Below the pieces are notes generated by a model. The model worked only from the letters and a program-made list of their open reading frames with translations, made no database searches and was not told where the DNA came from. DNA of 45,503 nucleotides from IMG/VR virus record IMGVR_UViG_3300042923_000188, positions 1 to 45,503 of that record. One strand, 5' to 3'. Origin of the DNA: a virus. Position 1 is the first letter of the stretch, and each line of letters opens with the position of its first letter. The position numbers and the translations under genes are program-made. Positions 16,147 through 45,503 of the stretch are shown here, piece by piece.

Positions 16147-16707
16147 TCAGCGCTTCCGGCCCTTGTCCTTGAAGTAGCGGGTCTGAGCCTGATCGAACCG
16201 CTGGGTGAACTCGACACCCTCGATCTCCTCGAAAGCGTTCCGGATCGGGGACGGCATCTCGGCCTGGTGCATGTACTTCTTCACCATGATGTCCCGGACC
16301 CGGAGCAGCTTCGCCGTCTTGGCGATGGAGCCGACAGTCCGCACGAGGCGGGCCATCGGAGATCCAATCCCCGGTCGGAGATCCGGCAGGTTCGTGCGGT
16401 GCCGCTGGTTGAGACGCCAGAAGAACCAGGCCTCGTCGATGTCTCCGAAGCCGTACTTGTTCTCCAGCGCTGCGAAGAGGTTGATCCCGGAACTCTCGGC
16501 CTCTCGGTAGAGAGCCGACTCCAGCATGTCGCCCACACCCTCCTTCCGGCCCTGGGCCACGAGGAGAAGGTGGTTCTCTCCGAAGCCATAGGACTTGGTG
16601 AAGGCGGAGCGAGTGACGCCATACTGCCGGAGCAGGAAGTCGACGGGGTTCTCGTTGGGGTAGTCGTCACGGATGTCGTTCGTGCCGACAGGGGAGAGAG
16701 CGGTCAT
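16147..16707 (-). CDS. Putative helix-turn-helix protein of the late operon
   Basis: 186 residues, mostly helical. Residues about 20-60 (NPVDFLLRQYGVTRSAFTKS followed by YGFGENHLLLVAQGR) have the spacing of an XRE-type helix-turn-helix, although the assignment is weak. The C-terminal half is basic (RVRDIMVKKYMHQ, DKGRKR). ATG overlaps the previous stop as ATGA. It could be a late regulator, a packaging accessory or a virion DNA-binding protein. If it is a regulator it would be unusual for lying inside the late operon. Confidence 0.6.
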   Translation of the reverse strand: MTALSPVGTNDIRDDYPNENPVDFLLRQYGVTRSAFTKSYGFGENHLLLVAQGRKEGVGDMLESALYREAESSGINLFAALENKYGFGDIDEAWFFWRLNQRHRTNLPDLRPGIGSPMARLVRTVGSIAKTAKLLRVRDIMVKKYMHQAEMPSPIRNAFEEIEGVEFTQRFDQAQTRYFKDKGRKR

Positions 16708-18031: not shown

Positions 18032-18067
18032 GGTGTCTCCTCTGGTCGGTGTGAGGTAGTTGGCAGA

Positions 18068-18341: not shown

Positions 18342-18370
18342 AGTGTATGGGGTAGTGAGGGGTGTGTCAA
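18342..18370 (-). promoter_or_regulatory. Leftward promoter of the late operon
   Basis: On the minus strand TTGACA (18365-18370) and TACACT (18342-18347) are separated by exactly 17 bases, a near-ideal host sigma-70 type promoter. It points at the late operon and lies in the divergent region between the leftward and rightward genes. The spacer ends in CTACCCCA. Confidence 0.8.
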
Positions 18371-18387: not shown

Positions 18388-18404
18388 GGTATCAAATGGA
18401 CGAA
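18388..18404 (+). promoter_or_regulatory. 17-bp leader element, copy 1
   Basis: GGTATCAAATGGACGAA, one mismatch from copies 2 and 3. It stands 73 bases before the start of the first rightward gene and 18 bases beyond the -35 box of the divergent promoter. All three copies precede a separately transcribed plus-strand gene. Confidence 0.7.
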
Positions 18405-18410
18405 ACTCAA

Positions 18411-18473
18411 TCCGGAACAAGATGCCGGAGACTATCTCATGTAGGGGGAGATACCCCCGGACCTGGGAGGTCC
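18411..18473 (+). promoter_or_regulatory. Structured leader with AUG-UAG and sequestered ribosome site
   Basis: Three consecutive perfect hairpins can form: 5-bp TCCGG/CCGGA (18411-18429), 5-bp GGGGG/CCCCC (18444-18458) and 6-bp GGACCT/AGGTCC (18459-18473). The last holds the GGGAGG ribosome site of the downstream gene in its loop and stem. Between the first two lies ATG immediately followed by TAG (18439-18444), a minimal start-stop element preceded by the same CTATCTC found before the endolysin start. Confidence 0.5.
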
Positions 18474-20270: not shown

Positions 20271-20507
20271 ATGCTTCCCCGTATCAAGCACATCCGACCG
20301 AACTTCACTCAGCTGATCTCCGATGAAGGCACTCTCTACTTCTCCTACGAGACGCTTATCGCCTTCGAGGTGGACGGCACTCTCACGATCCGCAAGAACG
20401 ACTGGGGTCCCACCACCGGCAGGCACCTCAACGAGATCAACCCTGACAAGTCGATCCGTGTGGACAGGGACACCTTCAGAGAGCGCTGGTCGCTCATCTT
20501 CTCCTGA
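20271..20507 (+). CDS. Small early protein of an actinophage-type family
   Basis: 78 residues. The pattern GTLYFSYETLIAFEVDG, then NDWGPTTGRHLNEI, matches a small family I recall from actinophages, in which the NxWGPTTGxHLN motif is invariant. No function is known to me. It is beta-rich and probably a single domain. The start is ATG with GGAAGGA nine bases upstream. A strong hairpin follows at 20528-20558, so this is a single-gene unit. Confidence 0.8.
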   Translation: MLPRIKHIRPNFTQLISDEGTLYFSYETLIAFEVDGTLTIRKNDWGPTTGRHLNEINPDKSIRVDRDTFRERWSLIFS

Positions 20508-20527
20508 TCCACTCCTTGGTTCCGACT

Positions 20528-20558
20528 CCCCGCCTGGGCCGAAGGCCCTAAGGCGGGG
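20528..20558 (+). terminator. Strong hairpin terminator, first of two
   Basis: CCCCGCCT pairs with AGGCGGGG, and inside it GGGCC-GAA-GGCCC, giving 13 bp with a two-base bulge. It lies 20 bases after the stop of the preceding gene. Confidence 0.7.
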
Positions 20559-20617
20559 GGGAGGCTCACCTCACCACTCGCTCCACACATGGCTGTGGTG
20601 GGTAGTCATTTACATTG

Positions 20618-20658
20618 ACCCCCACCACTACGCCTCCGTCGAGGCTAGTGGGGGGGGT
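20618..20658 (+). terminator. Second strong hairpin, start of the control block
   Basis: A long stem: GCCTC/GAGGC with a CGTC loop, continued by ACTA/TAGT and by a C-run against a G-run with one mismatch, about 17 bp in all. It insulates the AT-rich repeat block downstream from transcription arriving from the left. It has no U-tract on either strand. Confidence 0.55.
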
Positions 20659-20682
20659 AGAGTCCTGTCAAGTGAAAGCATA

Positions 20683-20699
20683 TTTGACACGATGTCAAA
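20683..20699. promoter_or_regulatory. Palindromic site 1
   Basis: TTTGACA-CGA-TGTCAAA, a perfect 7-bp inverted repeat with a 3-base spacer. It includes a TTGACA box on each strand. A TACACT box follows 20 bases after the plus-strand TTGACA. A half site TGTCAAG lies at 20666-20672. It is the same element as the two copies at 20763-20805. Confidence 0.7.
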
Positions 20700-20762
20700 C
20701 ACCTCGCTTTACACTGGAAACACTGACAACTCACCCCAAAAGAATCACATAGCGAAGCACTT

Positions 20763-20805
20763 GTTTAACAGCATGTCAAACGCTATGTTTAACAGCATGT
20801 CAAAC
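20763..20805. repeat. Tandem palindromic sites 2 and 3 (24-bp period)
   Basis: GTTTAACA-GCA-TGTCAAAC occurs twice, at 20763-20781 and 20787-20805, as 19-bp imperfect palindromes with identical sequence and a 24-bp period. They form an AT-rich patch in an otherwise GC-rich genome, ending 15 bases before the next gene. They can be repressor or activator operators, or iterons of a replication origin. In the plus-strand frame they encode a repeated FNSMSN peptide, but that frame is most likely not translated. Confidence 0.75.
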
Positions 20806-20820
20806 ACGATTGGAGCACGA

Positions 20821-21081
20821 ATGGAACTTCACTGGCAGGACCCTCCAGCCCCTCAGCCACGTAACCCGCGACGACCGGTGAACCGGAACTGGAACTCCAT
20901 CATCGAGACGCTGCGAGCCAACCCTGGGCGATGGGCACTCATCGAGCAAGGTGCGACTCTCGGTGCTGTGCAGAGCATCCAGAACACCGTCAATCGACGC
21001 AACGAGGGAGACCTCGAACTCATCACCCGCCGCAACCCCTCAGGTGTCGGACTCGACGCCTACCTGAGATCAAACCCCTGA
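20821..21081 (+). CDS. Small basic protein after the palindromic repeats
   Basis: 86 residues. The Pro/Arg-rich start (PAPQPRNPRRPVNRNW) leads into a helical domain (NSIIETLRANPGRWALIEQG; AVQSIQNTVNRRNEGDLELI). The PGRWA segment occurs in small actinophage proteins of unknown role. The frame is open far upstream, but ATG at 20821 has TTGGAG upstream and the longer version would cross the palindromes and hairpins. Its basic, helical nature and its place next to the repeats make it a candidate for the protein that binds them; this is inference only. Confidence 0.7.
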   Translation: MELHWQDPPAPQPRNPRRPVNRNWNSIIETLRANPGRWALIEQGATLGAVQSIQNTVNRRNEGDLELITRRNPSGVGLDAYLRSNP

Positions 21082-23661: not shown

Positions 23662-24123
23662 ATGACATCCGTACACCTCAGCGAGGGCGAGAGCCGAGTG
23701 CAGTCCGCACTGAAGGAGCACCCCGGCTCGACTGTTGCCGAACTGGAAGGCCTGGCCAAGGCCAGCCGACCTACGGTTCGCAACGCCCTCGTCAAGATCG
23801 AAGCTCGCGGTAACCTTCTGTCGACCCGAGAGTGGCCACGTCGCTACTCCTACGTCGCTATCCCACAGGCCACGCCTGAGGAGTCCGAACCCCGGTACCT
23901 CATCCAGCCCGACAACGTGAAACCTCACCTCATCGGTCGAACCTGGGCCGGGAGCCGCGAGAAGATCATCAAGGCCATCGAGGGGATCGACCTGTCTCGA
24001 ATGGACAAAGCTCAGGTCGAGAAGGCCTTCGAGGCTGTCACCAAAGCCACCAGCGGCATCTACGCCGCTCTCCGACAGATCGAGGATGGCCCGGAGTGGC
24101 GACAGGAAGCAGGAGTGAAATGA
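23662..24123 (+). CDS. Winged-helix DNA-binding protein
   Basis: 153 residues. Residues 5-65 have the pattern of a winged helix: SRVQSALKEHPGSTVAELEG, then a recognition helix in LAKASRPTVRNALVKIEARG, and a wing ending in TREWPRRYSYVAI. The C-terminal half is helical (RMDKAQVEKAFEAVTKATSG) and could dimerise. It is the clearest transcription-regulator candidate in the early region and a candidate for binding the palindromes or leader elements. It heads the operon that runs to the nuclease and helicase genes. The next gene overlaps by ATGA. Confidence 0.75.
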   Translation: MTSVHLSEGESRVQSALKEHPGSTVAELEGLAKASRPTVRNALVKIEARGNLLSTREWPRRYSYVAIPQATPEESEPRYLIQPDNVKPHLIGRTWAGSREKIIKAIEGIDLSRMDKAQVEKAFEAVTKATSGIYAALRQIEDGPEWRQEAGVK

Positions 24124-44480: not shown

Positions 44481-45503
44481 CTACGAGATCGTCTTGACGA
44501 CGGATTCCTTGCCCGTGATCCGGGCCGACAGAGTGAAGACCTGAACAGGGGCGCTCGCGATGGAGCCGTCTGTCTCGAACTCCAGTCGGAAGAAGATCTG
44601 ACGGAACCTCAGAGCCTTCCGGAACTTGACGAATTTCCGAGCGGAGCCGAGGCCCTCCAGATCGTATTCCGTGATGACCTCGATAGACCCCTGGAAAGGA
44701 CTACCCCATGTGCCGTTGAGAAGCTGTCCCCAGGTGACACCCTGAGCGATCAGCTGTCCCCACGTCGGCTTCGAGTTGTAAGTGATCGGGGAGGCGATGG
44801 CCTTCACCTTGCGGCGGAAGAGAGCATCCACGCCCCAGTACGCCAGCCTCTTGAAGTTCGAGGCCAGCTTGTAGTCGAAGTTCTTGGTCTGGAGGACGCA
44901 GGTGAACTCCTCCGTGGCTGTGGTGACTCGATCCTCGATGTACAGCAGAGGGGTAGACCGAGATCCGCCAGCCGGAACCATCTTCGAGGGGAGCACGTAG
45001 GCCTCGTCGGCTGCGGCACCTGCCACTGGTGGAACGAACTGCCCAATGGCACCGTAGGTCTCCGAGCGCCAGCGAGTCCAGGTCCGAGTCCGGAGCGAGA
45101 AGACGTACATAGTGTCGTAGTAGCCGAAGATGATCCGGTTATTGAACGCCGACACCGTGAAGGGGAAAGCGATGTCGGCCGTCGAGACAGCGCTGAATGG
45201 CACCTTGATGTTGACCTGAGAAGCCCGGTTGTTGATGAACTCGTAGGCCTTCTCCTCGAACATGAAGTAGATGTAGTTCTCGAAGTTCACGAGGGCGTTC
45301 TTGTCGCTGAGTCCAACGCCGGGAACGAGCACCTGCACCGAGCCCTGAGCAGGGTCAGTGAGGTACTCGAACGAGAAGATCGAGCGGGTCCGGAAGACGA
45401 CGAGGGTGTTGTAGTACTTGGTCAGCGCGACCACACTCTCACCATCGCCAGCACCGATGTCGACAAACCCCGGCGTCTGCCAGAAGTTCGGCTGGCCGAG
45501 CAC
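44481..45503 (-). CDS. Propeller-like virion protein, C-terminal part (split by contig ends)
   Basis: The frame is open to the right end of the window and, after circular closure, joins the fragment at 1-646 to give 513 residues. The GTG at the very edge is an internal valine, not a start. Repeated strand blocks (VVALTKYYNTLVVFRTRSIF; FNNRIIFGYYDTMYVFSLRT) are propeller-like and resemble P22 gp10-type tail-hub proteins. The C-terminal third (KFVKFRKALRFRQIFFRLEF) is beta-rich and basic. It would stabilise packaged DNA at the tail hub. It contains the right copy of the 127-base repeat. Confidence 0.85.
   Translation of the reverse strand: MLGQPNFWQTPGFVDIGAGDGESVVALTKYYNTLVVFRTRSIFSFEYLTDPAQGSVQVLVPGVGLSDKNALVNFENYIYFMFEEKAYEFINNRASQVNIKVPFSAVSTADIAFPFTVSAFNNRIIFGYYDTMYVFSLRTRTWTRWRSETYGAIGQFVPPVAGAAADEAYVLPSKMVPAGGSRSTPLLYIEDRVTTATEEFTCVLQTKNFDYKLASNFKRLAYWGVDALFRRKVKAIASPITYNSKPTWGQLIAQGVTWGQLLNGTWGSPFQGSIEVITEYDLEGLGSARKFVKFRKALRFRQIFFRLEFETDGSIASAPVQVFTLSARITGKESVVKTIS
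45377..45503. repeat. Terminal direct repeat, right copy
   Basis: Identical to bases 1-127. Removing one copy leaves 45,376 bp. Both copies code for the same internal part of the propeller-like gene. Confidence 0.95.

Follow-up and report, generated by a model that had tools for sequence, protein, structure and literature searches.

Three palindromic sites in the most AT-rich block of an actinobacterial virus genome are putative operators of an early promoter

Genome layout and the AT-rich block

The stretch of DNA analysed here (the window) is a 45,503-bp virus record from IMG/VR. A gene at 44481–45503 appears to run on at the left edge of the window, which is therefore probably a circularised genome. 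Judged by DNA polymerase identity, the best annotated relatives are Microbacterium phage Shocker (51%), the Arthrobacter phages Jasmine and Casserole (about 41%) and Cellulosimicrobium phage DS1 (35%). The podovirus Jasmine has terminal direct repeats and carries an Lsr2-like gene, and no integrase has been reported for it (PMC5513430). Shocker is syntenic with the window, with the structural genes reading one way and the early genes the opposite way; in the orientation of the window, the early genes occupy about 18.5 to 35.4 kb and read rightward, and the remaining genes read leftward. No tyrosine or serine integrase was found in the window genome, which apparently belongs to a non-temperate actinobacterial virus. 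A nucleotide search of phage records with 3 kb around the block described below gave no match, and a search of IMG/VR through the polymerase found no relatives.

A block flanked by a 78-aa gene, which ends at 20507, and an 86-aa gene, which starts at 20821, has the highest AT content in the genome at window sizes of 60, 100, 155 and 200 bp, with a GC fraction of 0.413 over its 155 bp, compared with 0.612 genome-wide. Two hairpins precede it. The first (20518–20565; −34.8 kcal/mol, z −3.66) is terminator-like, closes the upstream transcription unit and falls in the lowest 0.1% of the 60-nt windows of the genome by folding energy, while the second (20590–20634) folds at −22.3 kcal/mol on the plus strand and −25.4 kcal/mol on the minus strand (z −3.8 and −4.7, respectively). 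A preliminary description of this locus had placed palindromes in an AT-rich patch behind two strong hairpins, and was accurate in the positions of the palindromes, the base composition and the strength of both hairpins (z −3.7 to −4.7).

The block contains three dyads. Dyad 1 (20683–20699) is a perfect 17-bp palindrome, TTTGACA-CGA-TGTCAAA, with 7-bp arms separated by 3 bp. Dyads 2 (20763–20781) and 3 (20787–20805) are identical to one another, GTTTAACAGCATGTCAAAC, and their 17-bp cores (20764–20780 and 20788–20804) carry one mismatch between the arms. The motif TTTGACA-N3-TGTCAAA, initially ascribed to the whole set, is thus exact at one of the three sites. Likewise, the 24-bp array first proposed holds for dyads 2 and 3, with the third member 81 bp distant: the dyad centres, at 20691, 20772 and 20796, are spaced by 81 and 24 bp, neither of which is a whole number of helical turns. 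A half site, TGTCAA, is present at 20666–20671, and the last dyad ends 15 bp before the start codon of the 86-aa gene (20821–21081, plus strand), the first early gene after the block, which has a GGAG 5 nt before its ATG.

No rightward consensus sigma-70 promoter was found in the block, only weak matches. The candidate TTGTTT-17-TATGTT (20761–20789, plus strand) is under the consensus threshold and has a predicted start at about 20796, the centre of dyad 3; a weak −10-like TACACT (20710–20715, plus strand) is without a well-spaced −35. On the minus strand, a promoter-like TTGACA-18-TAGCCT (20642–20671), in which the half site TGTCAA forms the putative −35, faces away from the early operon. Shocker has TTGACA-17-TACGCT at the same place (locus L125, position 44450, plus strand), and since a hairpin and then TTTTC occur about 100 bp past it, a short antisense RNA from this promoter-like sequence is possible.

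Other motifs occur around the early genes. The best promoter match of the region, TTGACA-17-TACACT (18342–18370, minus strand), heads the leftward operon, and copies of an oriented motif sit in its spacer and leader. This motif, CTAYCYCA (ACTACCTCA, ACTACCCCA, GCTATCCCA), is intergenic and found before start codons, with copies at 18052, 18310, 18329 and 18348 (minus strand) and at 18432, 19179, 20134, 20173, 21474, 22006, 29167, 34358 and 34369 (plus strand). In 14 of the 15 intergenic copies, on both arms, it is oriented like the gene after it, as is TACCCTA in Shocker (16 of 21), and CTATCCTAT is over-represented in Jasmine. In its arrangement CTAYCYCA is reminiscent of start-associated sequences or stoperators. 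Ahead of three early genes, a separate module, ATCAAATGGACGAA, at 18392, 19155 and 20111 (plus strand), opens a short reading frame in the leader, and one of these frames overlaps the next start codon (ATGA); Shocker has a comparable AATCAAATGGACC near 45077. Shocker also carries CTGTAAAGG 38 times (34 when the terminal repeat is counted once) against about 0.6 expected, in both genic and intergenic DNA.

The dyads as putative operators

A lone palindrome of this size with 7-bp arms is expected several times by chance. On the other hand, none of 60 Markov genomes and none of 20,000 shuffled versions of the block produced three mutually matching dyads within 125 bp, and the whole genome has no further copy with up to three mismatches. 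The dyads are near-identical and grouped in one regulatory region, as in an operator array.

The best explanation, from the sequence features, is that the rightward early operon is controlled from the AT-rich block. Within it, we consider it likely that the three dyads serve as operators at which a dimeric, phage-encoded protein represses the early promoter, because of their position, their statistics and the recurrence of the layout, with different dyads, in relatives. This favours the operator set for an early regulator that had been put forward as one of two options. The likely early promoter TTGTTT-17-TATGTT is straddled by dyads 2 and 3, which have a 24-bp spacing and stop 15 bp short of the first start codon, so a protein occupying them would obstruct RNA polymerase. 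A TTGACA overlaps dyad 1, which lies 81 bp farther upstream and could govern a second start or give cooperativity. The hairpins would stop transcription arriving from upstream, and the early genes would therefore depend on the block.

The other option was that the dyads are iterons of a replication origin, with the AT-rich DNA as the unwinding element and early transcription possibly priming synthesis. The block is indeed the most AT-rich place in the genome and has tandem repeats, and T7-like phages have origins at AT-rich promoter regions. However, the marks of an iteron origin (repeats in helical phase, an adjacent initiator gene and DnaA boxes) are missing from the block: the 24- and 81-bp spacings are off whole helical turns, no initiator gene adjoins it, the polymerase and primase-helicase genes lie about 10 kb away, and DnaA boxes are in no excess in the genome and absent from the block. 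Changes in GC skew track gene direction. We regard a replication origin at the block as unlikely.

The dyads could also be sites for a host transcription factor, through which the phage would sense host physiology or hijack a host regulator. A search of genomes for double sites returned mostly AT-rich chance matches, together with two operator-like sites in actinobacteria: TTTGACA-N3-TGTCAAA lies between divergent transport genes in Microbacterium azadirachtae, and upstream of a nitrilase-like gene in another actinomycete. The exact motif was present in just one of 198 genomes of the genus Microbacterium, which may not be the host genus of this virus, and this argues against a conserved host regulon in that genus. 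We consider a host factor rather improbable, and a phage-encoded repressor remains the preferred reading.

Candidate DNA-binding proteins

The regulator would most likely come from the early operon itself, in a Cro-like negative feedback. The candidate there is a winged-helix protein (23662–24123, plus strand) with a TrmB-like HTH match (E 7e-4, below the Pfam cut-off). Homologues of it are encoded by Shocker (31%) and the L213 genome (E 1e-16), with a less certain one in L129 (22% in an alignment); homology to the HTH-like early proteins of two further relatives, L258 and L262, was not detected. A single-sequence structure model of the protein was too poor for use (pLDDT 50).

The second choice is the protein encoded at 16147–16707 (minus strand), a diverged member of a tandem Cro/CI-type HTH family, whose gene adjoins the small terminase gene, as do those of the family in most relatives. 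Several members have clear HTH_3 or HTH_31 matches, and the family sequences suggest a second HTH-like half; a family profile gave only weak Cro/CI-type matches against PDB sequences, and a further scan for the family added no new members. The genome was previously described as having no immunity repressor. This stands in so far as no direct HTH_3 match is found in the window genome, and needs qualifying for the 16147 protein, whose family otherwise consists of Cro/CI-type HTH proteins. Temperate immunity is marked by an integrase and a recognisable repressor gene, and of these the window has only this diverged tandem-HTH homologue.

The product of the 86-aa gene had also been proposed as the binder. 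It has no HTH family match, its structure model (alpha-beta-alpha-beta-beta, moderate confidence) has no significant match in the PDB, and no homologue adjoins the block in Shocker or L129, all of which speaks against the proposal; the 23662 protein is the better candidate. Relatives sought through the 86-aa gene gave two contexts, both unrelated.

Neither the 23662 gene nor the 16147 gene has a palindrome of the dyad sequence at its own locus in the window. The window dyads occur solely at the early operon, and a product of that operon is therefore favoured as the binder. We put the 23662 protein at somewhat short of an even chance and the 16147 protein somewhat lower, with the rest falling to other phage or host factors.

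Relatives and known systems

The window palindrome is absent from Shocker, Jasmine, Casserole, DS1 and all other relatives fetched, so its recognition cannot be traced across them. The layout is kept in relatives (a strong hairpin, an AT-rich block with repeats, then the first early gene), with differing sequences, as expected for operators co-evolving with a phage regulator. The preliminary description had taken absence of the palindromes from close relatives as grounds for rejection; the sequence is indeed absent, but with the arrangement kept, that test is too strict.

The syntenic block in Shocker, which precedes gp64, has the highest AT content of any 150 bp in that genome. It lies about 480 bp within the 484-bp right terminal repeat, has a hairpin behind it and carries a pair of direct repeats, TGAYGAACTTGAA, spaced by 22 bp; one member of the pair overlaps TTGACG-17-TAACCT. 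The relative L241 carries a pair of TTCAGAA..TTCTGAA dyads, spaced by 97 bp, where that locus is richest in AT, between a hairpin and the putative early-operon promoter TTGACA-16-TAATGT. In L258, a strong hairpin is followed by TACACGYTACRCCGTGTA (TACACG-type) dyads with a 45-bp spacing and then by the early operon, the second gene of which has an HTH_20 match (E 1e-4, below the Pfam cut-off). In L262, CGTTAC..GTAACG dyads come after a hairpin and just before an early gene whose product is 27% identical to the L258 HTH protein and has no Pfam match of its own. In the same scan, Jasmine, DS1, L129 and L213 gave no comparable dyad pair; L213 has the hairpin and the AT-rich stretch. A pair in L130 that is part of an 89-bp tandem repeat and a pair in L254 that probably lies in coding DNA were left uncounted. 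The fragments L210, L211, L212 and L325, with a nearly identical recognition helix, end before the early block.

These arrangements bear on a further alternative, in which the dyads work as RNA, forming hairpins in the leader close to the ribosome-binding site, or are bound by an activator instead of a repressor. Dyad 3 lies 15 bp from the start codon, comparable with the inverted repeats of cluster EG phages, 14–22 bp before starts (PMC7302621), and one L241 dyad has an activator-like position immediately 5′ of the −35. As RNA, however, the dyads would be weak, being short and A-U rich with 3-nt loops; one site is 81 bp upstream, and the repeats of the relatives stand at varying distances from the start codon. 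We hold this alternative to be very improbable, and continue with the dyads as repressor operators.

In both L258 and L262, a separate repeat pair lies immediately 5′ of the tandem-HTH (HTH_3) gene, the repeats being near-perfect with periods of 35 bp (L262, 2620–2690) and 36 bp (L258, 7425–7480). From their position these are probable autoregulation sites, and with repeats at both places, dyad pairs accompany both regulators in these relatives. Upstream of the tandem-HTH family, 8 dyad pairs (at no more than 6 distinct places, in 4 loci) were found in 96 kb against none in one shuffle of that DNA.

A more speculative idea, which we think doubtful, is that integrase-less actinophages of the Shocker/Jasmine kind share a two-regulator switch, combining an early-operon HTH protein and its fast-diverging dyads with the tandem Cro/CI-type HTH protein, which may target operators of its own or the oriented motif (CTAYCYCA here, TACCCTA in Shocker). 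If true, this would amount to operator-based mutual exclusion in lytic phages, like immunity groups. If the operator reading itself is right, the block is where the early genes are switched on and off in a little-studied group of actinobacterial phages, and it offers a compact set of promoter, operators and regulator that lends itself to direct tests. A fixed layout with fast operator change would then form a natural series for joint change of operator and regulator, bearing on whether lytic phages exclude relatives through shared operators.

At the OR and OL operators of lambda, bound by CI and Cro, 17-bp dyads symmetric about a central base lie 24 bp from their neighbours, centre to centre, at an early promoter. 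The window shares the 17-bp dyads, the 24-bp spacing of neighbours and a predicted early promoter position; unlike lambda, it has no integrase or lysogeny module and no adjacent repressor gene, its third site is 81 bp off, and its binder is a candidate. The nearest studied actinophage case is mycobacteriophage BPs, in which gp33 has palindromic sites at the early promoter PR; BPs differs in its 12-bp half sites, its temperate lifestyle, the adjacent repressor gene and the presence of sites elsewhere in the genome (PMC4557955).

Cluster O mycobacteriophages carry a 17-bp repeat, TGTTCGG-NNN-CCGAACA, in more than 30 copies genome-wide, mostly away from promoters (PMC4351075). The likeness extends to the 7-bp inverted arms 3 bp apart, the absence of an integrase and the predicted binding of a dimeric protein (PMC4351075), whereas the Cluster O copies are dispersed and of different sequence, and the window has three copies in one early control region. 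The 18-bp inverted repeats of Microbacterium cluster EG phages likewise lie shortly before start codons in an actinophage, but occur in 8–10 copies at many genes with arms 2 bp apart (PMC7302621), compared with one locus here. With no further window copy within three mismatches, the dyads fall outside this dispersed class. The stoperators of Cluster A are asymmetric 13-bp sites spread over many short intergenic regions in one orientation, in contrast with the symmetric, local dyads of the window; a stoperator-like distribution is shown in this genome by the asymmetric motif CTAYCYCA, which is distinct from the dyads.
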